From positions 1 through 34,107 of IMG/VR virus record IMGVR_UViG_3300032267_000178: 34,107 nt of DNA, one strand, 5' to 3'. The translations under genes and the position numbers were made by a program. How positions within the stretch are numbered: the first letter of the stretch is position 1; each line of letters starts with the position of its first letter. This stretch comes from a virus. This document shows, piece by piece, positions 4,339 through 30,465 of the stretch. The notes beneath the pieces are model-generated. The model worked only from the letters and a program-made list of their open reading frames with translations. It made no database searches and was not told the origin of the DNA.

Positions 4339-6444
4339 ATGCCTGATTTTGGATTTGTTGGCCCATCATATGAAGCCCCGTCTATCTACCAAGATGCACA
4401 GGAATGTATTAATTTTCGTCCTGAAATTGATCCACTAAAACAACCTGGGCAAAATGGCGTAATTGCGCTATATCCAACCCCAGGATTAACGATTAAAGCA
4501 GTTCTTGCTGATACTGGCGAAGTGCGTGGTTTAAGAACCGTTTCGGGCGGTGATTACATGGTGGCGGTTTGTGGGCAAAACGTTTATGTTCTTGATTCCA
4601 CATTTAATGCAGTAAATATTGGTGCTTTAAATACCAGTTCAGGAATTGTAGGAATTACTGACAATGGCTTAAATGTTTATATAGTTGATGGAACTAATCG
4701 CTATACATGGCGCATTTCTAACCCAAATAATGCTGAATTTGTTGGTTCTATATCAGGCACAACTTTGACAGTAACTTTAATGAAAAGCGGAACTATTGCC
4801 GCCAGCCAACAAGTGCTTTGTGATGGAATATTGCCTAGAACCGTTATTACCGCATTGGGTACTGGAACGGGCGGTGTTGGAACTTATACAATAAATCGTA
4901 CTCAAACCATTACTTCTAGGGATATTAATACTGCGGCAGTTGGTGCAGTTGTTACCGGAAGCATTTCAGGAACCGTTTTAACTGTTACTGCGGTTACTAG
5001 CGGAACTTTATATCCAGGTCAAACCATTCAAGGAACTGGCGTTACTGCTGGAACGATTATTACGGCCCTAGGCGGTTCTGCGGCATTGTCATTTAGCATT
5101 ACTGCGGCCGGCACCGGATATGCCGTTGGTGACACCATTACGGTTACTGGCGGCATATATAGTGAACAAGCTACATATACAGTTGCAACCATTGGCGGTG
5201 GTGGTGCGGTTACAGGCCTTACAACGGTAAACAATGGCGTTTATACAGTAGTGCCAGGAACTCCAGCAAATACAACAACTAGCGGTAATGGTACAGGGTT
5301 AACCCTTACATTAACGTTTGGTACCGGTACCGGCAACACCGGAACCTATGTTGTTAGCGCATCACAAACCGTTGCTTCTACAACCTTATATGCATTGAAT
5401 TTTAGTGTTTTACCAAACAATGATGGGCCTTTTGAAGGCGCAAACGTAGTTGATATTGTAGATAACTATTTTATTTACAACCGCCCTAACACCCAACAAT
5501 TTGGTTCTTCAAACCCTTTATCGCCTATTTCTTCAGCATTGGCATTTAGTTCTAAAGATGGTTCACCGGATGACCTAGTATCACTTATTGTGGATCATCG
5601 TGAACTGTATTTAATGGGTGAAGTTTCTTCTGAAGTTTGGGTAAATAGCGGATTATTCCCTTTTGCTTTTCAACGTATTCCTGGAACGTCTACCCAGCAT
5701 GGTATAGCCGCCAAATTTTCAATAGCAAGACTTGGCAATTCTTTTGCTTATGTTAGCCGCAATATTCGTGGCCAAGCCCAAATAATGATGATGAATGGGT
5801 ACGTACCAACCCGTATATCAACCCATGCCGTAGAACAAACATTGCTTGATAAATTTGTTGATGATGCAAGGGCCTGGACCTACCAGTTAGAAGGCCATGA
5901 AGTTTATGTTGTTAGCTTCCCAACCATTGATTTAACTTGGGCATATGACATTTCTACTGGAATGTGGCATAAATGGCTTTGGGTAGATTCCAATAACGTA
6001 TATCACCGTCACCGTGGCAATTGCCATGCAAGCTTTCAAGGTAAAAACCTTGTTGGCGATTGGGAAAACGGCAATTTATATCAATTAGACCAATTAAATT
6101 ACACCGATAATGGTGATGAAATACGTAGGTTACGCCGGGCACCCCATTTAATTAGCGACTATCAACGTCAATATTTTCATGAATTACAAATACATTTTCA
6201 ACCAGGTGTAGGTTTGCCAAATGGTTCTGCGCCCCAAGCTATGTTGCGCTGGTCCGATGATGGCGGTTCTACTTGGTCAAATGAACATTGGTCCAGCATT
6301 GGCGTACAAGGCGCATATAAAAACCGTGCAATTTGGCGTAGATTAGGCCAATCCAGGGATAGAATATTTGAAGTAGTAGTAACTGATCCAATTAATGCCG
6401 TAATTACTGCGGCCAATCTTAAAGCGGATGCTGGGGTTAACTAA
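4339..6444 (+). CDS. P22 gp10-like packaged-DNA stabilisation / neck protein with inserted repeats
   Basis: The start (FGFVGPSYEAPSIYQDAQECINF, then YPTPGL) and the beta-propeller-like body (MVAVCGQNVYVLD, VYIVDGTNRY, DNYFIYNRPNT, ELYLMGEVSSEVW, AYVSRNIRGQAQ, VYVVSFPTIDLTW) fit the gp10 family. Those proteins plug the portal channel after packaging and connect to the tail. P22 gp10 has 472 aa; this protein has 701. Residues about 134-351 hold extra beta-repeat domains between NNAEF and NFSVLPNNDGPFEG. It follows the gp4-like gene by 9 bp, in the conserved neck order, and abuts the next start (TAATG). Fold assignment is by pattern, with no structure checked. Confidence 0.8.
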   Translation: MPDFGFVGPSYEAPSIYQDAQECINFRPEIDPLKQPGQNGVIALYPTPGLTIKAVLADTGEVRGLRTVSGGDYMVAVCGQNVYVLDSTFNAVNIGALNTSSGIVGITDNGLNVYIVDGTNRYTWRISNPNNAEFVGSISGTTLTVTLMKSGTIAASQQVLCDGILPRTVITALGTGTGGVGTYTINRTQTITSRDINTAAVGAVVTGSISGTVLTVTAVTSGTLYPGQTIQGTGVTAGTIITALGGSAALSFSITAAGTGYAVGDTITVTGGIYSEQATYTVATIGGGGAVTGLTTVNNGVYTVVPGTPANTTTSGNGTGLTLTLTFGTGTGNTGTYVVSASQTVASTTLYALNFSVLPNNDGPFEGANVVDIVDNYFIYNRPNTQQFGSSNPLSPISSALAFSSKDGSPDDLVSLIVDHRELYLMGEVSSEVWVNSGLFPFAFQRIPGTSTQHGIAAKFSIARLGNSFAYVSRNIRGQAQIMMMNGYVPTRISTHAVEQTLLDKFVDDARAWTYQLEGHEVYVVSFPTIDLTWAYDISTGMWHKWLWVDSNNVYHRHRGNCHASFQGKNLVGDWENGNLYQLDQLNYTDNGDEIRRLRRAPHLISDYQRQYFHELQIHFQPGVGLPNGSAPQAMLRWSDDGGSTWSNEHWSSIGVQGAYKNRAIWRRLGQSRDRIFEVVVTDPINAVITAANLKADAGVN
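4738..5391 (+). repeat. Beta-repeat domains in the gp10-like gene, one with a nested insertion
   Basis: These bases encode residues 134-351. Copy A (134-193) reads [18 protein letters not shown] ... TVITALGTGTGGVGTYTI. Copy B starts at 206 ([18 protein letters not shown] ... GTGVTAGTIITALG) and stops at 245. Residues 246-327 (bases 5074-5319) are a different beta-rich domain (SITAAGTGYAVGDTITV ... YTVATIGGGGAVTGL ... TLTLTF). Copy B then resumes with [20 protein letters not shown]. One domain is therefore inserted inside another, at the same GTGTG turn that is intact in copy A. Confidence 0.75.
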
Positions 6445-6704
6445 TGGCTATTGCACCAGGAAGTCAAGGCGGCGTTTGGACTAATTCCCAAAATAACCCC
6501 TATCCACAATCCCCGCTATTGGATGAACAAACCAAACGTCCAACCAGGGCGTGGCAACAGTTTTTTCTTGGAATACTAAACTTTACTTCAGCACCATCGG
6601 CAACAACTGGCCAATCAGGGGTAACTTTGCCAGCAAATCCAGTAGGTTTTATTAATATTACGGTTAATGGTCAACCTTATAAAGTGCCTTATTACAACCC
6701 ATGA
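6444..6704 (+). CDS. Small tail-associated protein, function unknown
   Basis: This 86-aa protein has a Gln/Asn/Pro-rich N-terminus (NPYPQSPLLDE), the segment RPTRAWQQFFLGILNF, and a C-terminus INITVNGQPYKVPYYNP. The P..P.W.QFF signature recurs in short proteins encoded after neck genes of podoviruses, probably a tail-attached or trimeric fibre-like component. By position it stands where P22 has its gp26 needle gene, but it is far too short and lacks the heptad repeats of a needle. The start codon overlaps the gp10-like stop (TAATG), and its end overlaps the next gene by 4 bp. Confidence 0.6.
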   Translation: MAIAPGSQGGVWTNSQNNPYPQSPLLDEQTKRPTRAWQQFFLGILNFTSAPSATTGQSGVTLPANPVGFINITVNGQPYKVPYYNP

Positions 6705-7213
6705 ACCTTATTTACGTTAAACCTTCTAGGCAATTATCAGTTAAAACGCAAATAGTAAATTTGCAAAACGAACTATTAAAAATGCCACAAGCTGACATAG
6801 TTACGGAACATACGTTTTTGCCAGGGATTTATGAACGTAAAATTACCGTGCCGCCCTGGACTGTATTAACCGGGGCAGAACATAAAACTGGGTACAAAAT
6901 ACGGTTAGAAAAAGGCACAATTGCCGTAAATGTTGAAGATTCAGTCAAGGTATTGACCGCCCCAATGGAATTTGATGCAAAAGCCGGGGCACAACGTGTA
7001 GGCCGTGTATTTGATGAAGAAGTGGTTTGGGTGGATGTTTACGAAAATCCCGATAATTGCCAAAATATAGAAGTTCTTGAAGAACGTTTATATGTTGTGC
7101 CTGACTGCGGTTTGGGCGAAAATAGAGTTTCATTACAAATTAAAAATTCAAAAGAAAACAAGCTTTTGTTAGATCAAACATTGGAAGGGGAATTACTATG
7201 TCAGGATGGGTAG
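6701..7213 (+). CDS. Cupin-fold-like phage structural or accessory protein
   Basis: The core of this 170-aa protein (residues about 32-125) runs FLPGIYERKITVPPWTVLTG, AEHKTGYKIRLEKGTIAV, a TAPMEF strand, then GAQRVGRVFDEEVVWVDVY. This matches a phage family with a single cupin barrel, in which an H and later acidic residues face the pocket. It is usually found among tail and ejection genes. No enzymatic activity is established for the family as far as I know. The reading frame overlaps both neighbours (ATGA at the start, 16 bp at the end), so it is co-translated with the neck and ejection genes. Confidence 0.6.
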   Translation: MNLIYVKPSRQLSVKTQIVNLQNELLKMPQADIVTEHTFLPGIYERKITVPPWTVLTGAEHKTGYKIRLEKGTIAVNVEDSVKVLTAPMEFDAKAGAQRVGRVFDEEVVWVDVYENPDNCQNIEVLEERLYVVPDCGLGENRVSLQIKNSKENKLLLDQTLEGELLCQDG

Positions 7214-7857
7214 CCGGTGCCGTAGTAGTAGGGTCAGTAGCTTCTAGCTATATGCAGTCAAAAGCCGCTGGCCAGGCCGCTGATCAATATGGCCGTCAAG
7301 CAGAACGTGGTTTGCAATATAACCAACAAATGTTTGACACAATTAATGCCCAAAATGCCCCTTACCGTGCTACCGGTGAAAGAGGTGCAACTTTATACAA
7401 TCAATTAGCTGATACTGGTTATTTGACCGCCCAGCCATCAATGGATGATTTGACTAGATTGATGCCAAATTATCAATTTAATTTGCAACAAGGTTTAGGG
7501 CAACTTAATTCACAAATAAACGCTGGTGGCGGTTTAGTTAGTGGAAATGCTATTCAAGGTGCCCAACAATTTGCCCAAGGATATGCCGGCAATGCTTTAG
7601 CTGATGCTTTTAACCAATATCAAGCCAATCGTTCAAACGTAGTAAGCAACGTAAATGCTTTAACGGGCGTGGGCCAGCAAGCAAATGCAACAACGGCAAC
7701 TGCCGCTAGTGGTGCTACTGCTAATGCTTCTAATTTGCTTTCTAGTATTGGTAATGCACAAGCCGCTGGAACAATGGGTGCGGCCAATGCTTATGCTGGT
7801 GGCCTTAATAATATTAGCAATTACGCAATGCTTTACGGTATGCGTAGTAAAGCTTAA
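7198..7857 (+). CDS. Internal virion / DNA ejection protein (P22 gp7-like size and composition)
   Basis: The protein has 219 aa and is rich in Ala, Gly, Gln and Asn. A short hydrophobic N-terminus (AGAVVVGSVASSYMQSKAAG) is followed by a helical segment with NQQMFDTINAQNAPYRATGE, then F.LQQGLGQLNSQINAGGG and a low-complexity Ala/Thr stretch. The APYR.TG..A pattern is typical of small ejected internal proteins of podoviruses. It lies immediately before two larger putative ejection proteins, the same 7-20-16-like grouping as in P22. Such proteins leave the capsid ahead of the DNA and form a conduit through the cell envelope. The family call is moderate. Confidence 0.65.
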   Translation: MSGWVAGAVVVGSVASSYMQSKAAGQAADQYGRQAERGLQYNQQMFDTINAQNAPYRATGERGATLYNQLADTGYLTAQPSMDDLTRLMPNYQFNLQQGLGQLNSQINAGGGLVSGNAIQGAQQFAQGYAGNALADAFNQYQANRSNVVSNVNALTGVGQQANATTATAASGATANASNLLSSIGNAQAAGTMGAANAYAGGLNNISNYAMLYGMRSKA

Positions 7858-7880: not shown

Positions 7881-9323
7881 ATGGCTGGATTTACCGCAGA
7901 TTTAAACCCAAAAAATACTGGTATGTCACTTGCTGACATAATGAAAGCTGGTGCTTACGGTGCCGAAATGGACGTTCTTAACCGTCAAGCCGCAGTTGCA
8001 CGGGAAAAAGAAAAAGAAATGCCGATAATTAAAAATTTTATGGCTGATCCTACAAATAAGCTTTCTGACGGTTCTTTTGATTTAAAACAAATGCCAGCAT
8101 TAATTTCCATTGCGCCGTTAACTGGTCCTGAATACGCTGACAAAATTATTGGTTTAACTAAAAATAACATTGAAACAAATCGTGCTTTAAATTCGCTTTC
8201 AGAAGAAAACCGCAAACCTTTTGCCGCTATTTATGGTAATTACGGCCAATTAGCGGCCAACGGCCAAGTAATTACAAACACCGAAATTATTGGATCGCTA
8301 CAAAGATTAAAAGATTTTTACCCACAATTATCACAAGCGGCAGATGGTCAAATTAAAAGTTGGCAAGCAAGACCTGAAAATACTCCAATTGATGCACAAG
8401 TATTAATGAAATCACGTAATGAATCATTAACGCCAACACAATTAATTGATCAATTCTCGCCCAAGGCTGGAACAATTACTATTGGAAATCAAATTGTTGG
8501 AACTGTTACACAACCTTCAGTTGCCGGTGAACAACCTAGGGTTTCTACTACTCCATTGGGTGGTGGCCTAGGTACTGTAACGCCTACTGGCGGCGCAACA
8601 ACTGAACCTGGTGGTAAGCCATTGCCTAAGATAATTCAAGAAGATACTTCTATGAGTTATACCGGCCCAGCTAATCCGTTAAACCTTAATAAATTTCAAG
8701 AAGAAGCTTATTCAAAAGGTAAAGCAAACGTTACAGAAGCTAACATGGCAACTAAAACCATTAAAGATTTAGCTTTAAGTGTAGATAAAGTTGAACAATA
8801 CATAGCCAGCGCAAGCGGTTCTAAAGTATTTCAAATGGTTCGCCAGGGTGGCAAATATGTATTTGGTGATGCTGAACTAGATTCATTGGTTAAAAACATT
8901 GCCCAGGTTCAAGCTAGAAATGCCCAAGTTATGGGATTGGATAAAACCGATGCTTCCCGTGACTTAAACGCCAAACTTTCCGGTAGTGAAAATATTGATG
9001 AAAAGGCCCTTGCTGGCGTTATGCAACAAGTTAAAGCTGAAACTAAAGCGGCAGAACTTTATACCCAAGGCCTTAATAAATTTGTTGAAAAACGTGGTGA
9101 CGTTAACGGCTATATTCAACAACAAAAATTCCAAAATAAGTGGGCCGAACATTATGACCCACGTATTTTCCAAATTGATAACATTGCCGAATCAAAATTG
9201 CCTGAAGCTGAAAAACAAGCAAGAATTGATCAAATTACAGGCAGAATGACCGAAGCACAATTTAAAAAATTAAGACAAGATTCTGTAATTTTGCATCGTT
9301 TAGCTAAAGGTCAATATCAATAA
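7881..9323 (+). CDS. Putative ejected internal virion protein
   Basis: This 480-aa soluble protein is helical and Gln/Lys/Ala-rich. The N-terminus carries FTADLNPK followed by a helix with SLADIMKAGAYG. The middle (about 200-250) is a Gly/Thr/Pro linker, and residues 265-470 are helical with amphipathic segments. It shares the FTADLNPK N-terminus with the 88-aa protein at 25084. It has no transmembrane segment or catalytic motif. Its size and place between the small ejection protein and the peptidase-bearing 797-aa protein match P22 gp20 (471 aa). The ejection role is by position and composition only. RBS: AGGTGACAAT before the ATG. Confidence 0.6.
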   Translation: MAGFTADLNPKNTGMSLADIMKAGAYGAEMDVLNRQAAVAREKEKEMPIIKNFMADPTNKLSDGSFDLKQMPALISIAPLTGPEYADKIIGLTKNNIETNRALNSLSEENRKPFAAIYGNYGQLAANGQVITNTEIIGSLQRLKDFYPQLSQAADGQIKSWQARPENTPIDAQVLMKSRNESLTPTQLIDQFSPKAGTITIGNQIVGTVTQPSVAGEQPRVSTTPLGGGLGTVTPTGGATTEPGGKPLPKIIQEDTSMSYTGPANPLNLNKFQEEAYSKGKANVTEANMATKTIKDLALSVDKVEQYIASASGSKVFQMVRQGGKYVFGDAELDSLVKNIAQVQARNAQVMGLDKTDASRDLNAKLSGSENIDEKALAGVMQQVKAETKAAELYTQGLNKFVEKRGDVNGYIQQQKFQNKWAEHYDPRIFQIDNIAESKLPEAEKQARIDQITGRMTEAQFKKLRQDSVILHRLAKGQYQ

Positions 9324-11716
9324 TGGCTAATACAACTTTTGATGAAGAATTAGACCTTGTACCAGGGTTTAAGTATTTAAAAAATAAACTTGTTACTGTA
9401 AGCCCAGCACCGGCTGAATTTAACAATGCAAAACCTATTGAAACACCAAAAGTTGATTTGGAAAGACTTGATCCAGCACTAAGAGAACGTATTAATGTGG
9501 CCGCACGTGATTGGCTTACTAATAAAGAATTAAACCCAAAAGGTGAGCCATTACCAATTACTAGCGGATTTCGTGATATTTCTAAACAATCCCAATTGTT
9601 TTCTAACAGGGCATCAAATCCTAATTTAGTTGCGCCGCCAGGGTATAGCAGTCACGAAAAAGGCATGGGAATTGATATTTTGCCTAGCGTTCCTGATTCT
9701 TTTTTGGCTAATTATGGTTTGTACCGGCCGCATGGTGCAAAAGACCCCGTACACGTAGAAATTAATCCTAAAGCTAATTATCAATCAACAGTAGATTTAA
9801 CTGGCGAGGAAGATTTGGGCATACCTGGGTTTAAATATACAAGCCGCCAAGGTGTCTATACGCCATCCACCAGGGAAGCAGTTAGCAACCAATTTCAGGA
9901 TGTTAGAAATCAATTAGGCAGTTCTAGGTATTACACAAATACATTGCCTAAACAAGTTGCCGCATTGGGTGACGTACTTTATGGTTCTATTCCAGCCGCA
10001 GTTAAGTTTGTTGGTGAACCGTTTGCCAAGCTTATTGATAAAGTTGGCGATACAAAAATAGCAACTGAAACATTAGATAAAGTAACCCAATTTGCTGACC
10101 GTCCTATTGGTAAAGCTTTTGGCATTACTAATGATCCAGCTTATAACGCAGAAGCCGCTAATCGTTTTATGGATTATGTTGGCAAAAACATGGATAAAGG
10201 CGCAGATTACATTGCTAAAGAAACTGGCATGAATAAATCTGATGTAGCCTGGTTTATGAACGCCGCCACAATTGGTGCCGGTGCATTAGCATATAAAGGG
10301 GGTAAAAAAGCCTATGAAACTGGTACAGAAGTATTACCTAAAGCTAAAGAACAACTTGCAACTCAATTTGAAACTGTTAAAGGAAAAGTTCAAGAAAAAT
10401 TCCCAAGCTTAAAAGGGGAAGAAAACCCCAATTTGCGTAGCGTAGGGGCCGCTGAATTAAGTGCCGGCAAATTACGCCAAGCTAAAGCCCAAGAACTATT
10501 GGTGCCAATGGATTTGCCACGTGACATTGTTACCCGTAATTTTGCAGATATTAATTGGGCACGTGAAAAAGCTAAAGATGCAATTACAGGCGAACCATTA
10601 CGTCAAAACTATTCCAAGCTTAATAAAGAACTTATTGACAATCTTGATGCTGAAATTTATGCAACTGGTGCCCAAAAAACAGGCGTTGATCGTGGCGATC
10701 TTGGGCAAGATTTAGCCAACGTTGTTGGCACATATAAAACAAACCGTTATCAAGCCGTTAAAGATGCATATACTGCCGCTGACAATGCCGGTGAAACATT
10801 GCAACAAGTGCCATATAAGCCGGTGCTTGATTACATTGAAAACATTAAAACTAAACGTCCTACCCAGTACGATCAAAACCCTATCTTAAAAATGGTAGAG
10901 GAAGATTTAAAAGCAAACGATCCAAAAAATGCTACTGGCACAGTCAATTTACGTCAATTAGAAGATATTCGTGCATTAATTAATGCTGAAACTGAATTTG
11001 GAACTTCTAACGGATTTCACGGTAGCAAAATTCGTGATCAAATTGATAACATCACTAAAGATGCTGGTGGCAGTTTGTATAAAGAAGCACGTGCCCTTAA
11101 TAGCCGTTATATGAAAGAATTTGAAGAAAATCCAGCAATTAGGGATATTACGGCAACTAAAAAAGGTACAACTGAACGCAAAGTTGCTATTGAAACATTG
11201 GTAGAAGATTCAATGCTTAAAGGCCCACGTTCTAGGGTAGAAGAAATATTTAAAACGTTAGACAATGCCGGCCCTGAAGGCCAGGCCATGATTAATGAAT
11301 TACGTGGCGTAGTAGCAGAACAAATTAAAAATGAAGCAATCAAAGGTGTAAGCCGGGATATTAATGGCAATCCTATTGTTACCCCAACTGGCCTTAACAA
11401 TATGATTACTAAGCTTGATAAATCCGGCAAGCTTGACCTTATATTTGGTAAAAAAGGTGCAGAACGTTATCGCACCCTTAATGATGTAGCAATTGATGTT
11501 AAAACCGTGCCCGAAGGTTCTGTTAACTATTCCGGTTCTGCGGCACAATTTAAAAATTTAGCGGCACAAATTGCAACTGACGTAGCTACTTCTGCAATTG
11601 CCGGTGTTCCAGCACCAGTTACTACCGTTGGAACTTTGCTTTATAAAAACCGCAAAAACAAGCAAGAACTCAATAAAATAAGTGAATTTATCAATTACGG
11701 TAAGGAACAAAAATAA
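9323..11716 (+). CDS. Large ejection protein with N-terminal M15-type D,D-peptidase domain
   Basis: Residues about 50-150 of this 797-aa protein form an M15 (VanY/D-Ala-D-Ala carboxypeptidase-like) zinc peptidase domain. It has PITSGFRD, then SSHEKGMGIDI giving H111 and D118, and VHVEI giving E146 after H144; these are the expected zinc ligands and catalytic acid. The remainder is helical, with hydrophobic stretches near 312-325 and near the C-terminus (about 757-780). The motif LVPGFKY/GIPGFKY occurs on both sides of the peptidase (about 12-18 and 166-172). The likely role is to cut peptidoglycan cross-links while the ejected proteins build a channel. It overlaps the previous stop (TAATG). 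Confidence 0.75.
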   Translation: MANTTFDEELDLVPGFKYLKNKLVTVSPAPAEFNNAKPIETPKVDLERLDPALRERINVAARDWLTNKELNPKGEPLPITSGFRDISKQSQLFSNRASNPNLVAPPGYSSHEKGMGIDILPSVPDSFLANYGLYRPHGAKDPVHVEINPKANYQSTVDLTGEEDLGIPGFKYTSRQGVYTPSTREAVSNQFQDVRNQLGSSRYYTNTLPKQVAALGDVLYGSIPAAVKFVGEPFAKLIDKVGDTKIATETLDKVTQFADRPIGKAFGITNDPAYNAEAANRFMDYVGKNMDKGADYIAKETGMNKSDVAWFMNAATIGAGALAYKGGKKAYETGTEVLPKAKEQLATQFETVKGKVQEKFPSLKGEENPNLRSVGAAELSAGKLRQAKAQELLVPMDLPRDIVTRNFADINWAREKAKDAITGEPLRQNYSKLNKELIDNLDAEIYATGAQKTGVDRGDLGQDLANVVGTYKTNRYQAVKDAYTAADNAGETLQQVPYKPVLDYIENIKTKRPTQYDQNPILKMVEEDLKANDPKNATGTVNLRQLEDIRALINAETEFGTSNGFHGSKIRDQIDNITKDAGGSLYKEARALNSRYMKEFEENPAIRDITATKKGTTERKVAIETLVEDSMLKGPRSRVEEIFKTLDNAGPEGQAMINELRGVVAEQIKNEAIKGVSRDINGNPIVTPTGLNNMITKLDKSGKLDLIFGKKGAERYRTLNDVAIDVKTVPEGSVNYSGSAAQFKNLAAQIATDVATSAIAGVPAPVTTVGTLLYKNRKNKQELNKISEFINYGKEQK

Positions 11717-21238: not shown

Positions 21239-21518
21239 AGCAGAAAAAGAACATTATGCGAAGCTGGCTAGATTGGGTTGCATATTGTGCGTACAGAAAG
21301 GAATCCTTGATACCGATACGCCCGTGGAAATCCATCATATTCGCAGACATGGACAACCAAGAAAAACTGCTAAAACTATACCCTTGTGTATGTGGCACCA
21401 CCGTCTTGGAAATTCCAGCGTTCATTCCCTTGGACACAAAGGATTTCAAAAATACTGGGGATTTAGCGAAGAAGATTTGCTTGAAAAAACCGAAAAAATG
21501 CTAAATGACAATAATTAA
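21231..21518 (+). CDS. Ref-like HNH-type recombination nuclease
   Basis: This 95-aa protein has LGCILCVQKG (C17, C20), VEIHHIRRHGQPRK (H35, H36), TIPLCMWHHRLG (C53, H56, H57) and SVHSLGHKGFQKYWG (H65). This arrangement is that of the phage Ref family, in which an HNH-like domain with an embedded zinc site cuts DNA at RecA-made D-loops. The family member studied in phage P1 depends on RecA. This gene is followed by RusA and preceded by a nuclease-like protein, a small recombination block. It overlaps both neighbours, which implies coupled translation. It lacks the disordered lysine-rich N-terminal region of P1 Ref. Confidence 0.8.
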   Translation: MTKAEKEHYAKLARLGCILCVQKGILDTDTPVEIHHIRRHGQPRKTAKTIPLCMWHHRLGNSSVHSLGHKGFQKYWGFSEEDLLEKTEKMLNDNN

Positions 21519-21852
21519 ATTGCCATATCCACCCAGCGTTAATACCTATTGGCGTAACTTTAGGGGCAATACTGTTTTAAGCCAAGCTGGCCGGGAATAT
21601 AAAAAAGCAGTATGGGCTTGTGTTCATGAACAAAAAATACCTAAATTTGGCGATAAACGGCTTGAAGTGACAATGTGGCTATATCCTAGGTCTAAGGTAG
21701 TTACGGATTTGGATAATCGTTTAAAAGCAGTTTTAGACGGTTTAGAAGAAGCAAACGTATTTTCATGCGATGGCAATATTGACGTACTTATGATTCAACG
21801 TGGCGAACAACGTAAGGGTGGCGGCATTGATGTAATGATTGAAGTAATTTAA
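21505..21852 (+). CDS. rusA: Holliday junction resolvase RusA
   Basis: The 115-aa protein matches RusA over its length. It starts TIIKLPYPPSVNTYWR, has SQAGREYKKAVW, TDLDNRLKAVLDGLEEANVF with D68 and D70, then SCDGNIDVL with D89 and D93. The aspartates correspond to the metal site that cuts four-way junctions, and K74 sits near the site as in the E. coli protein. The role would be resolving recombination or replication intermediates before packaging. Length and motifs agree with the family (about 120 aa). The start lies inside the Ref-like gene (14 bp overlap). Confidence 0.9.
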   Translation: MTIIKLPYPPSVNTYWRNFRGNTVLSQAGREYKKAVWACVHEQKIPKFGDKRLEVTMWLYPRSKVVTDLDNRLKAVLDGLEEANVFSCDGNIDVLMIQRGEQRKGGGIDVMIEVI

Positions 21853-21860
21853 AATTAGTT

Positions 21861-24788
21861 ATGGCAGAAGAATACGAACTAGGCACCGTTGGCCCTATAC
21901 CAACAGTTAACCCCAATGTAGCAAGAATTGGGGAAATGCTAAAAATTGCCAAAAAATATGCTGATCAATATTACGTTAAAGATTACGTTCCATTAATTGG
22001 TGGAACTACCCTGGGTGAATTTCTTTTAGGTAAAGCACCGGAAGAAGTTGAACGTTGGGGCCAAGGCAATTATCCATTTAGAAACCCATCATCCGTAGTA
22101 GGAACTGGTGGCAACCGCTTAGACGTATGGAAAACAGGGCGTTTTGAACCTACGTTTGACGTGCTTACTAACGTGGCCCTTCCAGCCGTAGGAACAGGGC
22201 AATTAGCCGCTAGAACAACTAAAAACTTACCAGTTGGCGCAAGCATTATGGGGCCGGAATCTGCATCATGGAAACCCGAAATGGCGTTTCAAGCTGGAAA
22301 AATGGAAGCTAAAGGGGCCAAACCGGAAGAAATATATGAAGCTACCGGCATGGTTCGGGGTTTAGATAATCAATGGCGTTCAGAACTTAGTGATCAATTT
22401 GCCAAAATGAAAACTAAAGGCGATATGTTTAGTGAACATTACATGGCCGCTAAAGATATACCACCATTGCAAGTGCATTTAATTAAAGCTGAAGAAGCCA
22501 AATATGGCCGAAGCCCACCAAAATTGCATGAAATGACGGATAAAGAAAGAAACGATTACGACATTTTTAGAAAAGAAAAGATTGAAGAACACGGGCACAT
22601 GAGCAAAGCACCGGTTACGGTAAAGGATGTATTGGATCATCCTGAATTGCTTAAAGCTTATCCGGAACTGGGCGATATTAAAATTCAAGTTGGTAGCGGT
22701 CACGGTGGCCAACGTGGAAGTTATAACGAAGGTCAAAACACCATTACGTTAGCTTCTTATTTAGATACTGAACAATCCCGTTCTACTATGTTGCATGAAT
22801 TAACCCATGCAATACAAAGTAAAGAAGGATTTAACAGGGGCGGCAACCCTGATATGTTTACGCATCAAAATTTAGCTTTACAACTAAAGCAAAATTTAGA
22901 AATTAGGGACGTGGCCGATGTAATTAAAAAAGGTATGCCGGATGCAACTGAAGCAGAAGTATTAGCAAAATTAGAAAATATTTATAAAAACAAAGGTTTT
23001 GACCAAGATTATTTAAAAAATGCGTTGGATCGTAATTATTGGTCCGATGATATAGCTAAAAAAATTGTTACAGAATATGGGTTAGACAAAAGAGAAATTC
23101 CATATTCAAAAGAAGAAATGTATAGAAACCTGGCTGGGGAAGCTGAAGCCAGGATGGTGCAAAACAGATTAAATTTATCGCCTGAAGAATTACGTCAAAA
23201 CTTTCCGTATCAATATGCGCCAAATAAATACGGCCTAGACATTGATCCTGATAGGGCAAACGTTATTAGTGACCGTGGCCAATTAATTAATGAACCATCA
23301 CAAAGCTTAGACATAAAGGGGTTTAAAGATGAAGGAAATTTTAGAAGGGTGGGAGAACCACAATCAAACCTTGAAAAGTTTGGGATTGCCGGAAATGACC
23401 AAACAAGATTACCAGGCGGCCTTATTGAGAACGCCGGCAGAATCACACGAGGAAGCAATCCGGATGACATTGCGAAATCGGCCGAACTCATCCAAGCCAA
23501 CTTAAACAATCCGCAATTCAACAAAGCTTTAGCTTTAGCACAAAAGCACAATCCTGATTTTAATATACAAGCTATTAAAGATATGCCTGAATCATCCTTG
23601 GGCAAGCAACATTCTATTGCTAGAACCTATGATTTGTTAACTAAAGATAGTGTTTCGCCCCAGCTAAAAAATGCCATATTTGATGATTACATGGCTAAAT
23701 ACCCTGACATGATGAAGCAATACGGGGTTAAAGATTACGATGATTTGGTAAAAAAATCTTACGCCCAGCTAAGAAAAGAAATTGACCAGCAATTTGATGA
23801 CATGGTCAAAGGCGGTATGAAATTGTCGTATCACCAGGGCGATGCTAATTACCTTGATTCAAAAGAAATGTTACGGGATGCCCTTGTAAACAATCATTTA
23901 TATACATACCGTGGCGGTGACGTACACCCATTGCTTAATGACATGGACGAATTTTATGGCCTTAACAGTAATGAAAAATTTAGGGCCGTGCATGATTTTT
24001 TTGGCCACGGCACAACCGGGGCAACGTTTGGCCGTAAAGGTGAAGAACTGGCTTACGGTGCCCATGCACAAACATTAAGCCCATTAGCCAGGATAGCGGC
24101 CGCCGCTGAAACCAGGGGCCAAAACAGTTTTGTTAATTATTCCGGCATAAATGCTGACCTAGAACAAAAGATGATGGCTACTAGAATAGCCAAGGACCAG
24201 GCCGTACACCGTGGTGAAAGCCCTGATCAATACGATGCCATTTTGCGTGACCTAGGCGGCCAATGGCAGTACGCAAAACAACAAGGCGTGGCCTTACCAC
24301 CGGATATGCTTGAAGCCGGCTACAAAGGCGAAATGCCTGATTACATTAAAGCCAATTTATTTCCCGAACACGGGGTAAGCTACAAGGGCTATCATTATTC
24401 CAATATATCGGACCTAGAAGCAACTGATCCGGCCAAATATGGCTATGGAATTCGGGGCGCAGAAGCTAAAAGATTGGCTTTACCAGGATCAATTAAAGAA
24501 CGTACTTATTTTTACAATGAACCAGGTATGCGTGAACCTGGCCTTGGACCAAACCAATATGAAGCAGATTTAAACCATTTTTACGATACTGAAGCTGATC
24601 CAGCCGGAATTATTCGTATGGCAGATAACTTTAATCGTGATAAAAACGGCATATTAGATATTGCCGGTAAAGCTAATGACATTGAACGCATGATGCGTGA
24701 AGCTGGGTATCACGGTTACTTTAATCAAAACACCGGAGTAGGTATATCTTTTGAGCCGCAAATAGTGCGTGAATATTCACGTGAATAG
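21861..24788 (+). CDS. 975-aa polyvalent protein with HELTH metallopeptidase motif
   Basis: Residues about 270-345 hold GSYNEGQNTITLASYLDTEQ followed by STMLHELTHAIQSKEG, with H312-E313-x2-H316, a zinc metallopeptidase motif of the kind seen in the LPD23 polyvalent-protein domain. Residues about 580-790 hold a second block with TYRGGDVHPLLNDMDEFYG, KFRAVHDFFGHGTTG and YGAHAQTLSPLAR. The C-terminus (about 840-975) has GYHYSNISDLEATDPAKYG, GAEAKRLALPGS and ERTYFYNEPGMREPG, like an ADP-ribosyltransferase-type polyvalent domain. No membrane segment is evident. It ends the early operon, just before the packaging genes. In this class such proteins are thought to enter with the DNA and act on host targets. 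Here that is inference, as is any enzymatic activity. Confidence 0.65.
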   Translation: MAEEYELGTVGPIPTVNPNVARIGEMLKIAKKYADQYYVKDYVPLIGGTTLGEFLLGKAPEEVERWGQGNYPFRNPSSVVGTGGNRLDVWKTGRFEPTFDVLTNVALPAVGTGQLAARTTKNLPVGASIMGPESASWKPEMAFQAGKMEAKGAKPEEIYEATGMVRGLDNQWRSELSDQFAKMKTKGDMFSEHYMAAKDIPPLQVHLIKAEEAKYGRSPPKLHEMTDKERNDYDIFRKEKIEEHGHMSKAPVTVKDVLDHPELLKAYPELGDIKIQVGSGHGGQRGSYNEGQNTITLASYLDTEQSRSTMLHELTHAIQSKEGFNRGGNPDMFTHQNLALQLKQNLEIRDVADVIKKGMPDATEAEVLAKLENIYKNKGFDQDYLKNALDRNYWSDDIAKKIVTEYGLDKREIPYSKEEMYRNLAGEAEARMVQNRLNLSPEELRQNFPYQYAPNKYGLDIDPDRANVISDRGQLINEPSQSLDIKGFKDEGNFRRVGEPQSNLEKFGIAGNDQTRLPGGLIENAGRITRGSNPDDIAKSAELIQANLNNPQFNKALALAQKHNPDFNIQAIKDMPESSLGKQHSIARTYDLLTKDSVSPQLKNAIFDDYMAKYPDMMKQYGVKDYDDLVKKSYAQLRKEIDQQFDDMVKGGMKLSYHQGDANYLDSKEMLRDALVNNHLYTYRGGDVHPLLNDMDEFYGLNSNEKFRAVHDFFGHGTTGATFGRKGEELAYGAHAQTLSPLARIAAAAETRGQNSFVNYSGINADLEQKMMATRIAKDQAVHRGESPDQYDAILRDLGGQWQYAKQQGVALPPDMLEAGYKGEMPDYIKANLFPEHGVSYKGYHYSNISDLEATDPAKYGYGIRGAEAKRLALPGSIKERTYFYNEPGMREPGLGPNQYEADLNHFYDTEADPAGIIRMADNFNRDKNGILDIAGKANDIERMMREAGYHGYFNQNTGVGISFEPQIVREYSRE

Positions 24789-25422: not shown

Positions 25423-25749
25423 ATGGCTGATGTTGATTTTATATTAAAACCCCTGGGGGACAAAATAGTTGTTCGCCCGGATAAACGCATTTTAAGCACC
25501 ACCATTATTGTTGAAAATAAAGAGGTGGATAACATGGGCACGGTAGTAGCCGTAGGCCCAGGCAAAAAGATTAAAGGCCGCCGGGAAGCAATGCCGGTAG
25601 AGGTAGGCCAACACGTCAGATTTGGCACGATGGGTAACGATGAATACCTAAAATATCAAGAATACTTTACTAACAATGAACGTTATCTGATAATGTCATG
25701 GCAAGACGTATGTTTTATAACTGACGGAGAACAAGCAAATGGCAACTAA
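25423..25749 (+). CDS. GroES-like co-chaperonin
   Basis: The 108-aa protein follows GroES order: ILKPLGDKIVVRPD (strand 1), STTIIVENKEVDNMG in the mobile-loop and roof region, TVVAVGPGKKIKG, PVEVGQHVRFGTMG, then NERYLIMSWQDVCFITDG. Bacterial GroES has GGIVL at the loop; here the counterpart is TTIIV. The protein would form the heptameric lid for host GroEL, as T4 gp31 does, probably to fold the coat or another phage protein. It lies in the late block shortly ahead of terminase. It is somewhat longer than GroES (97 aa) owing to the ends. Chaperonin binding is not shown. Confidence 0.8.
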   Translation: MADVDFILKPLGDKIVVRPDKRILSTTIIVENKEVDNMGTVVAVGPGKKIKGRREAMPVEVGQHVRFGTMGNDEYLKYQEYFTNNERYLIMSWQDVCFITDGEQANGN

Positions 25750-26685: not shown

Positions 26686-26997
26686 ATGACCTTACCAATT
26701 GAATCAAATAAAGTAGGCGCACCGGAAGGCAATGACAATGCCAAGAAGGGAAAACTGTTTTATGACCAATTGCGTAGGGTGCTGGTACAGAACGATTCAT
26801 TGAAGTTACGCCAGGTAAGTGAAAAGCTAGTAGATGCCGCTATTGAGGGTGAACCTTGGGCCGTTAAGGAAATTATGGATAGGATGGATGGCAAAGCAGT
26901 AGCCATTCAGGAAATACAAGGCCCTGGCGGTGCAGAACTAAAAGCTGGTTTTGTATTAACTTTTGAAGAACCCAATGGCAACGATTCAGGAAGCTAA
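26686..26997 (+). CDS. Small terminase subunit candidate
   Basis: This 103-aa protein carries VGAPEGNDNAKKG at the start, then LRRVLVQNDSLKLRQVSEKL, VDAAIEGEPWAVKEIMDRMD and GKAVAIQEIQGPGG. The G.P.GN.NA..G opening with a later EGE.WA.KEI.DRMDGK is a recurring pattern in short proteins encoded immediately upstream of the large terminase, usually taken as the small subunit that recognises the packaging site. It overlaps the large subunit start by 23 bp. The identity is by position and pattern; no HTH is certain. Confidence 0.65.
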   Translation: MTLPIESNKVGAPEGNDNAKKGKLFYDQLRRVLVQNDSLKLRQVSEKLVDAAIEGEPWAVKEIMDRMDGKAVAIQEIQGPGGAELKAGFVLTFEEPNGNDSGS

Positions 26998-28255
26998 AGC
27001 CAAGGCACGGTTCCCGGCAAAACTTAAATGCTTATTTGAACCGGCCAATGCCCGATACCGTGTTTTATATGGTGGACGGGGTGGTAGTAAATCCTGGAAC
27101 ATAGCCAGGGCGTTATTGCTTAAAGGATGCGAAAACCAAATACGGGTACTATGCGCCCGTGAATTCCAAACCAGTATTAAGGATTCGGTCCATAAATTGC
27201 TATGTGATCAAATCTTTGCCTTGGGAATTGAAGCCCATTATGAAATTACTGACCGCACCATTAGGGGCATAAACGGTACTGAATTCATATTTGTAGGCGT
27301 TAAAAACAATACTAACAACGTTAAATCCATTGAAGGTATTGATATTTGTTGGGTGGAAGAAGCCCAATCAGTAAGCCCTAATAGCTGGAACGTCCTGGTG
27401 CCAACCATACGTAAAGCCAATTCTGAAATATGGATTAGCTTTAACCCTGAACTGCCAACCGATGAAACCTGGAAGCGGTTCGTAATGAACCCACCGGAAA
27501 ACGCAGTAATACAAAAGATTAACTGGAACGATAACCCTTGGTTTCCTGAAGTGCTGGACTTAGAACGCCGTGCCCTTCAAGGAAGGGATATAGAAGCGTA
27601 TAACAACGTTTGGGAAGGAATTCCACGGCAAACGGTCAATGGTGCCATATTTGCTAAAGAAATCACTATGGCCGAATTAGAAGGCCGCATATGCAATGTG
27701 CCATACGATGCCACTAAACCCGTCCATGCGGTTTTTGACCTTGGATGGGCAGACCAAACGGCCGTGTGGCTACTGCAATTCGTGGGCCAGGAAACAAGAT
27801 TGCTACGTTATTTTGAAGATAGTCAGCAAACCATTAGTTATTACATGGCCAAGCTTCAATCGTTTGGTTACGTGTATGACACCATATGGCTACCCCATGA
27901 TGCTAAAGCTAAATCTTTGGGCACCGGCAAATCAATTGAGGAAATTGTTAGGGCTACCGGCATGAAGGTACAAATCTTGGACCGGGTGCCAGTTAATGAC
28001 AGTATTAATGCCGCTAGAACAATATTTCCTAAATGCTATTTTGATAGGCAAAATACTGAAGAAGGCTTACAATGCCTTAGACACTATCGGTATGATGTTG
28101 ACCCTGATACGAAAATGTTTAGTGCCAAGCCACTACATGATGAATATTCGCACGGGGCCGATGCCTTCCGGTACATTGGTTTAATGATTAATGAACCTAG
28201 AAAAGCCCAGCCAAAACGGGCTATTCAAAGGGCACCAGTAGGCTGGATGGGATAA
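26975..28255 (+). CDS. terL: Large terminase subunit (ATPase and nuclease)
   Basis: The ATG at 26975 is preferred to a TTG at 26963. The 426-aa protein has a Walker A (LYGGRGGSKS, residues 31-40), Walker B with catalytic E (ICWVEEA, 124-130, E128), a coupling motif SFNP (155-158), and RNase H-like nuclease acids D255 (AVFDLGWAD), D309 (PHDA) and D396 (SHGADAFRY). This is the packaging motor of tailed phages. The size is close to PBSX-type terminases and shorter than P22 gp2 (499 aa). It stops 2 bp before the portal gene. All motifs are intact. Confidence 0.92.
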   Translation: MATIQEAKAKARFPAKLKCLFEPANARYRVLYGGRGGSKSWNIARALLLKGCENQIRVLCAREFQTSIKDSVHKLLCDQIFALGIEAHYEITDRTIRGINGTEFIFVGVKNNTNNVKSIEGIDICWVEEAQSVSPNSWNVLVPTIRKANSEIWISFNPELPTDETWKRFVMNPPENAVIQKINWNDNPWFPEVLDLERRALQGRDIEAYNNVWEGIPRQTVNGAIFAKEITMAELEGRICNVPYDATKPVHAVFDLGWADQTAVWLLQFVGQETRLLRYFEDSQQTISYYMAKLQSFGYVYDTIWLPHDAKAKSLGTGKSIEEIVRATGMKVQILDRVPVNDSINAARTIFPKCYFDRQNTEEGLQCLRHYRYDVDPDTKMFSAKPLHDEYSHGADAFRYIGLMINEPRKAQPKRAIQRAPVGWMG

Positions 28256-28257
28256 AT

Positions 28258-30465
28258 ATGGCTGATAATTACGATGAAAAGAAATATTACGGTGATTTAG
28301 ACGGTGATCCACGTATTTCAGAAGCAATTGAATTCCTAAGACAAGCCGCCGAAGCTGATACTACTAATCGTGCAGAAGCCCTAGATGACGTTAAATTTGC
28401 CGCTGGTGATCAATGGCCAGTAGAAATCCAAAATAGCCGTAACCTGGAAGCCAGGCCGTGCCTTACTATCAATAAAGTTGATGCGTATTGCCGCCAAATA
28501 ACTAACCAGCAACGCCAGCAACGCCCACGGATTAAGTGCCAGGGCATGAATAATCAAACCGATGCCAAAATGGCACAAATCATTACTGGTATTTGCCGGC
28601 ACGTAGAAGTTAATTCCAATGCTGATCATGCATATGACACGGCCTATGATTTTGCAGTACGTATGGGATGGGGTTATTGGCGTGTAACTACTGACTATGT
28701 ACGCCCTGATTCGTTTGATCAAGAAATTTACATTAAGCCAATTGATAACCCATTTACGGTTTATTTTGACCCTAATTCAACCGCCCCCGATGGTTCCGAT
28801 GCAGAAAAATGCCTTGTTACCGTGGTTATGGCTAAAGAAAACTTTAGAAAAATGTACCCGGATGCCGATGATGGCGGTAGTTTTTCTGCCCGTGGAACCG
28901 GTGATAGCAATAGCGAATGGGTAACAAAACACGATATACGTATTGCTGAATACTTTTATACCCGTATTGAAAGCACTTACTTAGTATTGTTATCTGACGG
29001 TACAACCGTTTATGAAGATGAATTGCCTGATTCTGCAATGATGGAAGCGGCCGGAGTATTTGAGGTTAGCCGCCGTAAAACATTTAGAAAATCCATTAAA
29101 TGGTGCAAAGTTACTGCTATGCAAGTGCTTGAAGAAGGCACGTGGGCCGGCAAATATATTCCAATCGTTCCAACTTACGGCCAGCAATGCGTAGTGGATA
29201 ACAAACGTAAGAAGTTTGGCTTGGTACGCATGGCTAAAGACCCCCAGCGTATGTATAATTTTTGGCAAACATCCATGACTGAATCGGTAGCCCTGGCACC
29301 CAAGGCTAAATGGATCATGGCAGAAGGCCAAGACGAAAACCATGAAGCAGAATGGGCTAATGCAAACAATACGTCCTATTCTTATTTGCGTTACAAGCAA
29401 ACTGACATTACCGGCCAACCAGCACCACCACCAGTTCGCCAAGCCCCGGAACAACCACCAGTTGCAATTATGGCGGCGGCACAATCAATTACCCAGGATT
29501 TACAGGCCGTAGTAGGTATTTTTGATCCAAGTCAATTGCCACAAGGCAACATTAGCGGCAAAGCATTACAAGGCCAGCAACTTCAAGTGGATATGACTAA
29601 TTTCCATTATTACGACAATTTGACCCGTTCTATTGCCCATACTGGACGTATTATTCTTGACCTTATCCCTAAAATTTATAGCGCAGAACGTGTAATGCGG
29701 ATTATTGGGGATGATGGTAAACCCGAATTAATTACTGTAAACCAGCGTACTGGTCAACAAGATGAAAACGGCATTGAAAAGATACTGAATGACGTAACCG
29801 TTGGCGAATATGACGTAGTTATGGAAACTGGCCCTGGCTACAACACTAAACGCCAAGAAGCAGTTGATTCCATGATGAGTTTATTGGCCGCTGATCCTAA
29901 TTTAATGGCCCAAGCCGGTGATTTAATCTTTAGAAATATGGATTTCCCTGGCGCAGACATTATTGCAGACCGCCTAGCGGCAGTTAACCCAATGGCCCAA
30001 ATTGATGAAAAATCACCAATACCGCCACAAGTTCAAATGCAATTGGCCGCAAACCAGCAACAAATGCAAGCCATGCAAAAGCAGATAGAAGTTATGTCAA
30101 TGGTCATGAAGTACCGTACCGATGTAGAAGCAGTACGTCAAACTGGCGAAGATCGCCGTGCCGTTATTGCCGCTGAAGTTAAGATGCGTGACCAAAATAC
30201 CCGTTCATTGACCAGCCAAAACAAGACCGAAATTGAAGCATTGATGAAGTTAATCCTTGGCCAAATGGATACTGCTAGGTTAGAAGCTGAAATTATGAAT
30301 AGAAATCAAGAACAATATGCAATGATGAACAATGCTACCAATGCTATTGAAGATAATATGGCCGTGATGGCCCCAACGCCTGAACAAATGCAACAACAAC
30401 AACAAATGGCGCAACAAGCCCAACAAATGCCACAACAAATGCCGCAAGGTCAACAATTGATGTAG
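28258..30465 (+). CDS. Portal protein, P22 gp1-like
   Basis: The 735-aa protein (P22 gp1 has 725) opens with RISEAIEFLRQAAEAD and has KFAAGDQWP, then LTINKVDAYCRQITNQQRQQ, RIKCQGMN and a P-domain pattern including YFDPNSTAPDGSDAEKC. Later segments (VVGIFDPSQLPQGNISGKAL, QVDMTNFHYYDNLTRSIAHT) are typical of P22-type portals. The C-terminal part from about 600 is helical and Gln/Met-rich, ending in a Gln run (MQQQQQMAQQAQQMPQQ), like the barrel helix of P22. It forms the dodecameric DNA entry ring. The Gln-rich end may vary in length. Confidence 0.9.
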   Translation: MADNYDEKKYYGDLDGDPRISEAIEFLRQAAEADTTNRAEALDDVKFAAGDQWPVEIQNSRNLEARPCLTINKVDAYCRQITNQQRQQRPRIKCQGMNNQTDAKMAQIITGICRHVEVNSNADHAYDTAYDFAVRMGWGYWRVTTDYVRPDSFDQEIYIKPIDNPFTVYFDPNSTAPDGSDAEKCLVTVVMAKENFRKMYPDADDGGSFSARGTGDSNSEWVTKHDIRIAEYFYTRIESTYLVLLSDGTTVYEDELPDSAMMEAAGVFEVSRRKTFRKSIKWCKVTAMQVLEEGTWAGKYIPIVPTYGQQCVVDNKRKKFGLVRMAKDPQRMYNFWQTSMTESVALAPKAKWIMAEGQDENHEAEWANANNTSYSYLRYKQTDITGQPAPPPVRQAPEQPPVAIMAAAQSITQDLQAVVGIFDPSQLPQGNISGKALQGQQLQVDMTNFHYYDNLTRSIAHTGRIILDLIPKIYSAERVMRIIGDDGKPELITVNQRTGQQDENGIEKILNDVTVGEYDVVMETGPGYNTKRQEAVDSMMSLLAADPNLMAQAGDLIFRNMDFPGADIIADRLAAVNPMAQIDEKSPIPPQVQMQLAANQQQMQAMQKQIEVMSMVMKYRTDVEAVRQTGEDRRAVIAAEVKMRDQNTRSLTSQNKTEIEALMKLILGQMDTARLEAEIMNRNQEQYAMMNNATNAIEDNMAVMAPTPEQMQQQQQMAQQAQQMPQQMPQGQQLM

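Follow-up and report, generated by a model that had tools for sequence, protein, structure and literature searches.

The window analysed here is a 34,107-nt stretch of viral DNA (positions 1 to 34,107 of IMG/VR record IMGVR_UViG_3300032267_000178), in which an intact open reading frame encodes a protein of 975 aa (Table 1). The gene follows that of a RusA-like resolvase after 8 nt and on the same strand, and is itself followed, again on that strand, by small genes, a GroES-like gene, and the genes for the large terminase subunit (TerL) and a P22-like portal, the TerL-portal pair lying 2.2 kb away. Scans for promoters and terminators gave no signal above shuffles. Two other genes of this 34-kb podophage deserve mention: the GroES-like gene itself, placed as it is between the polyvalent-protein gene and TerL, and a gene at 9323-11716 in the tail/ejection region, whose 797-aa product carries a VanY-type D-Ala-D-Ala carboxypeptidase domain and is perhaps a virion protein that opens the cell wall.

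Table 1. Features at and around the polyvalent-protein gene, with positions in the window.
Feature	Position	Strand	Remarks
RusA-like resolvase	21505..21852	+	upstream border of the slot
Polyvalent protein gene	21861..24788	+	975 aa, ATG start, ORF intact
N-terminal leader, aa 1-116	21861..22208	+	73-84% identity among proteins with four payloads
LPD23 domain, aa 131-183	22251..22409	+	Pfam PF18838, 2.3e-8, above cut-off
Zincin-like metallopeptidase (DUF6782)	22593..23200	+	PF20573, 9.7e-10; HExxH at aa 312-316; E427 in GEAEAR
Linker between peptidase and HD domain, aa 480-555	23298..23525	+	drop in pS
Shine-Dalgarno-like AAAGGGG and spacer	23311..23328	+	before the nested start; relatives have a purine-rich site here
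Nested +1-frame gene, 58 aa, MKEILEGWENHNQTLKSLGLPEMTKQDYQ...	23329..23505	+	synonymous constraint, conserved ORF
HD domain, aa 556-800	23526..24260	+	phrog_3170 match; invariant residues
ADP-ribosyltransferase-fold domain, aa 836-975	24366..24785	+	AlphaFold model; H845, Y885
GroES-like co-chaperonin	25423..25749	+	downstream border of the slot; phrog_3188, 4e-9; conserved in relatives
Terminase large subunit (TerL)	26963..28255	+	
P22-like portal	28258-30465	+	follows TerL

From its N terminus, the chain consists of a leader of about 116 aa, an LPD23 domain, a zincin-like peptidase with an HExxH motif, a linker, a domain around KFRAVHDFFGHG (aa 706-717) for which we use the working name HD domain, and a C-terminal part with an ADP-ribosyltransferase (ART)-like fold. 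It thus joins LPD23, peptidase, HD and ART-fold parts with unrelated predicted activities, includes a domain typical of polyvalent proteins (LPD23, above the Pfam cut-off), and is encoded in a conserved slot close to the late genes. Six full-length relatives in viral contigs, 76-96% identical, all keep the HELTH, HD..GH and C-terminal motifs, and comparison with relatives in this range of identity indicated purifying selection in every domain (dN/dS 0.03-0.37). The gene is therefore real and encodes a polyvalent protein, whose motifs are not there by chance. Sequence searches of the PDB with the whole protein and two profiles returned nothing credible. For the peptidase, the Pfam match to DUF6782, a putative metallopeptidase, is above the cut-off and spans aa 245-332, with weak additional matches to M78 and MPTase-PolyVal. 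The HExxH residues are H312, E313 and H316, and E427 is the predicted third ligand; both histidines, the glutamate between them, the glutamine after HxI and the glutamate of GE.EAR (E427) are invariant in 51 non-redundant relatives. An HExxH followed by a later Glu is the pattern given for the zincin-like peptidases of polyvalent proteins by Iyer et al. (PMC5512222), and sequence profiles support the assignment of this part as a zincin-like metallopeptidase. The initial annotation had proposed a 975-aa polyvalent protein with a zinc-peptidase motif (H312-E313-H316) and an ART-like C-terminal part. The intact reading frame, the Pfam domains and purifying selection bear out the first of these, the DUF6782 match and the ligands invariant in 51 relatives the second, and the structure predicted for the C-terminal half, with H845 and Y885, the third. 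The motif positions it gave were also right, but it had missed the nested gene, the swapping of payloads and the independent, widespread domain marked by KFRAVHDFFGHG.

That domain is covered by phrog_3170, a family of unknown function, and has no Pfam entry; a Pfam search of aa 535-975 gave no match. Its invariant residues are Y664, D673, N704, R708, H711, G715, H716, G727, E728, A731, H735, E750 and Q754, with N704, R708, H711, H716, G727, E728, H735, E750 and Q754 unchanged over 77 sequences, and D712 is replaced by Glu in a few members. A single query against genome contigs gave just two relatives. A pattern scan of viral contigs found at least 587, and the domain occurs in more than 500 viral contigs. 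It is joined to an ART-like domain in 76 ORFs and stands in a peptidase-HD-ART order in 17 (overlapping copies counted), and small solo versions of 225-285 aa also occur. Bacterial genome contigs contain such genes as well, at 5791-6651 in a contig of Ruegeria haliotis (L094) and at 5752-7551 in one of an Acidipila MAG (L093), one of the two being a solo gene of about 280 aa. Modelled alone from the alignment of 77 sequences, the HD domain reached a pLDDT of 95, and the model had no significant match in the PDB. When the best 202 chains from Foldseek were re-aligned to it, two reached Z ≥ 2, both of them zincins with weak scores (IrrE 3.2, selecase 2.5), which we take as a weak hint, at most, of a zincin-like fold. 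No sequence relation was seen between the HD domain and the protein's own peptidase (hhalign 0.4-1%).

The AlphaFold model of aa 535-975 has a mean pLDDT of 93. Within it, the C-terminal domain, which includes the segment YHYSNI...GAE...TYFYNEPG (aa 844-889), found ART structures as its top structural matches, namely AcrIF11 (6kyf; Z 7.5 over 112 residues), NatT (7.0) and MbcT (6.8), followed by a pre-ejectosome chain of cyanophage A4 (9k3a_B, 5.8), TccC3 (4.3) and tankyrase (4.0). These Z scores, all below 8, are modest; we nevertheless read the domain as having an ART fold, because ARTs head the list of matches and because a His and a Tyr stand at the active-site positions in strands 1 and 2 (H845 and Y885), and the model supports this reading. 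The 975-aa protein has no match to the Pfam ART-PolyVal family (PF18760). Three other HD-ART proteins (L078, L050 and L033) have an additional, separate ART-PolyVal domain, and hence two ART types per chain.

For both C-terminal domains, another reading of the function has to be weighed. The ART-like domain may be catalytically dead and act as a binding module, since no conserved acid was found at the canonical third catalytic position in strand 5, which we place at aa 955-958 by estimate from the aligned ranges. Nevertheless, H845 and Y885 are conserved in 19 of 19 sequences, E868 and E942 are likewise invariant, and the dN/dS of the domain is 0.05-0.14, and we consider a dead domain unlikely. 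The HD domain, in turn, might be a remote relative of the aromatic amino acid hydroxylases (AAAH) or of COQ4, and thus a metal enzyme that does not derive from zincins. Its HDxxGH-x11-E resembles both the HDxFGH of bacterial phenylalanine hydroxylase and the HDxxH-x11-E signature of COQ4, phenylalanine hydroxylase chains are among the Foldseek rows for the region (E 1.2-7.8), and hhalign gave the COQ4 profile 15-55%, the highest value being reached over 25 columns. However, the COQ4 match does not extend beyond the motif, the hydroxylase chains listed by Foldseek were missing from the Z ≥ 2 rows after re-alignment of the region, the two zincins, themselves weak, were the sole entries at Z ≥ 2 for the domain alone, and Biopterin_H showed no Pfam match to the domain and 12-24% in hhalign. 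Structural re-alignment and whole-domain profiles thus did not bear out membership of the AAAH family, which the HDxFGH motif and the Foldseek rows had suggested, and we hold the more general idea of a remote hydroxylase-like or COQ4-like enzyme to be improbable. We prefer to see the HD domain as an uncharacterised domain of a metal-binding type that travels with the ART, a view that shares the even chance we give below to the explanation of which it forms part.

At the level of the locus, relatives with a different polyvalent gene have the same order, RusA-[polyvalent/variable gene]-GroES-TerL-portal, over as much of it as their contigs cover. Four relatives (L021, L104, L099 and L108) share the leader, at 73% identity in L021 and 77-84% in the other three, and differ in what lies behind it. 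The 975-aa protein has LPD23, peptidase, HD and ART; L108 has the peptidase and a DUF7178 domain, and L104 and L099 the peptidase and a short tail, all three without HD-ART; L021 has HD-ART only, without the peptidase. A single locus thus shows the exchange of payloads behind a common leader. In L104 and L099, the C-terminal ~100 aa after the peptidase read YRAVP...GDWVTP...YA..HG...SLHEFGYDP, which by eye resembles another type of ADP-ribosyltransferase.

The linker stands out at the nucleotide level. In comparison with the three closest relatives, its pS falls to 0.04-0.05, where most flanking domains have 0.23-0.41, and the low-pS codons coincide with a +1-frame ORF preceded by a Shine-Dalgarno-like (SD-like) site. 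Over this ORF the host frame changes synonymously at 0.115 times the gene mean, and none of the 917 windows has a lower rate; the minimum begins exactly at the nested ORF, and the lowest non-overlapping window has 0.509. In a second lineage the nested stretch was again slowest (0.33 vs 0.86), and in five gene clusters it was the slowest synonymous region, with relative rates of 0.41, 0.40, 0.30, 0.24 and 0.20 and lowest non-overlapping windows of 0.71, 0.88, 0.86, 0.67 and 0.65, respectively; a sixth cluster, with three pairs, was uninformative. Nineteen distinct sequences, among which identity of the nested protein falls to about 32%, have all retained the start codon, the purine-rich site and the open +1 frame, and the third frame across the region is full of stops. 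On synonymous reshuffling, the +1 frame stayed open in 0.2-2.4% of trials for six of seven genes, and in 55% for the seventh (L017). Of 65 non-redundant HD-ART genes, 63 have a +1 ORF of 40 aa or more immediately before the HD domain, in 57 genes with an SD-like site by the loose pattern used for all such calls; in HD-only genes the figures are 27 of 48 with or without the site and 7 of 48 with it, in control stretches 4/65 and 1/29 with it, and in the +2 frame 0. Most nested proteins from outside the group of this phage cluster together by similarity, as 40 distinct sequences that are without exception in the +1 frame. No stand-alone copy of the gene was found, ten further loci all being nested in HD genes. 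Searches of Pfam and PHROGs with nested proteins gave no significant match, with weak hits to phrog_25202 for 6 of 13 (best E 0.014). The motif [DEQ]xGxFxRV, which precedes the HD domain, was considered as a protein motif or cleavage site, but the start of the nested frame, of which it would be a by-product, explains it better. Taken together, a second, small protein seems to lie hidden in the +1 frame of the linker, as judged from the computed selection on that frame, and in Pfam, PHROGs and a limited literature search we found no earlier description of such an arrangement.

As to genomic neighbourhood, 31 contigs have both an HD domain and TerL, and in 21 of them the two are no more than 6 kb apart, 19 of these on the same strand, against 10.8 expected under random placement; since the contigs are metagenomic and related, these counts, like those for the HD domain and the nested gene, are not independent. 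Solo HD genes immediately 3' of TerL occur in L203 and L205, and gp205 of Rhodococcus phage E3, a relative of the HD domain, bears the annotation 'structural protein'. The conserved slot, the clustering with terminase, the solo genes after TerL and the E3 annotation make the placement compatible with head loading. In the initial annotation, the gene was described as last in the early operon and not beside the ejection genes, and its product as one that might act on host proteins in the cell or be loaded into the head late. The gene does directly follow RusA, but it also sits, on the same strand, in a conserved slot 2.2 kb upstream of TerL-portal, and this description therefore holds only in part.

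Many features of the protein recall known systems. Like the phage polyvalent proteins described by Iyer et al. in 2017 (PMC5512222), it unites LPD23, a zincin-like peptidase and an ART in one large chain, and that class likewise has varied architectures and a typical position near late genes. It differs in the HD domain with no Pfam entry, in the nested +1 gene, and in the fixed slot, where payloads are swapped behind one leader; we did not find the HD domain in the sections of that article consulted. Two members of phrog_3170, Mycobacterium phage Sebata gp107 and Gordonia phage Skog gp166, have the same HD domain, with the Sebata protein (433 aa) lacking both peptidase and ART-like domain. 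In the T7-like Pseudomonas phages LKA1 and phi15, gp7 and gp2, respectively, are HD-domain homologues by hhalign profile (94-97%, 128 columns) with the common pattern FRxxHD.GH...E...DT..Q, and differ as solo early genes of 160-190 aa with one residue fewer between the histidines; Q0E607 of phage LKA1, among the BFVD Foldseek matches of the HD domain, has 188 aa and fits gp7. The predicted fold of the C-terminal domain is that of AcrIF11 and of NatT/MbcT-type ADP-ribosyltransferases, from which the domain differs in its identity of about 10% and in the canonical third acid, which was not found. Finally, the Dar proteins of phage P1 are large internal head proteins that are ejected with the DNA and counter host defence (PMC12810830), and their likeness to the 975-aa protein is by analogy alone.

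Starting from the computed anatomy of the protein (its domains, conserved catalytic-type residues and ART fold), and from the fixed slot with swapped payloads, the terminase linkage and the selection on the nested frame, we propose that a P22-like podophage here encodes a modular polyvalent effector together with a nested partner gene, an explanation to which we give an even chance. The N-terminal leader would direct loading into the head, and the protein would be ejected together with the phage DNA; its own zincin-like peptidase would then cut the linker and free the HD-ART unit to act on proteins of the host, among which defence or transcription factors would be the probable targets. Release by the peptidases of polyvalent proteins was proposed by Iyer et al. 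(PMC5512222), and no cleavage site for the proposed self-cut was identified in our analysis. AcrIF11 ADP-ribosylates Cas8f (PMC13131331), so an ART of such a fold can disarm CRISPR. The nested protein of about 58 aa, if expressed as we infer, may be a partner of HD-ART made in the producing cell, either a protective inhibitor or an assembly chaperone. As it has no significant family match, its role is a guess; the simplest one, an antidote or chaperone that partners the ART unit, is suggested by the nested ORF being far commoner with HD-ART than with HD alone. More tentatively, and in our view rather doubtfully, HD-ART could be a mobile two-product unit of tailed phages, in which a conserved metal-dependent domain of a new class is coupled to an ART and the linker encodes, out of frame, their cognate antidote or loading partner. 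A partner encoded within the linker would make effector and partner inseparable during payload swaps behind the leader.

Two alternatives bear on this proposal as a whole. The constraint on the linker might reflect a DNA or RNA element, such as a packaging site, a recombination boundary between modules or an RNA structure, instead of a gene. The linker is indeed a junction for module swaps, with the upstream DNA in L003 diverging abruptly at its border, and the HD domain contains another open +1 stretch, of 62 codons (23890-24078), which makes ORF length alone weak evidence for a nested gene. That second stretch is absent from the slow synonymous windows and therefore probably due to chance, whereas the nested ORF coincides with the slowest region in all five informative clusters, keeps its start, purine-rich site and open frame in the 19 divergent sequences, and recurs with an SD-like site in most HD-ART genes and never in the +2 frame; moreover, neither RNA structure (z -0.57) nor inverted repeats were found in the linker. 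We thus consider a mere nucleotide element very unlikely. The second alternative is that the protein is an early or middle effector, made with RusA from the early operon, which does its work in the infected cell and never enters the virion. It counts against loading that the slot also continues the early operon, directly behind RusA on the same strand, so that the protein could act solely inside the infected cell, and the HD-domain relatives in T7-like Pseudomonas phages (LKA1 gp7, phi15 gp2) are encoded early, at the left end and at a distance from the head genes. Conversely, the slot is conserved beside the terminase operon, HD-domain genes are linked to TerL and portal, the E3 relative carries its structural annotation, and a position near late genes is typical of phage polyvalent proteins (PMC5512222); we regard a purely intracellular effector as possible, though on the unlikely side.

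If the proposed head-loaded effector with its nested partner is correct, a widespread architecture of phage effectors carries an overlapping gene that has been systematically overlooked, which would give a handle on how a host-attacking enzyme can be made without harm to the producing cell or the virion. The HD domain represents a large uncharacterised family with enzyme-like conservation, and the slot with its swapped payloads is a natural place to seek counter-defence enzymes.
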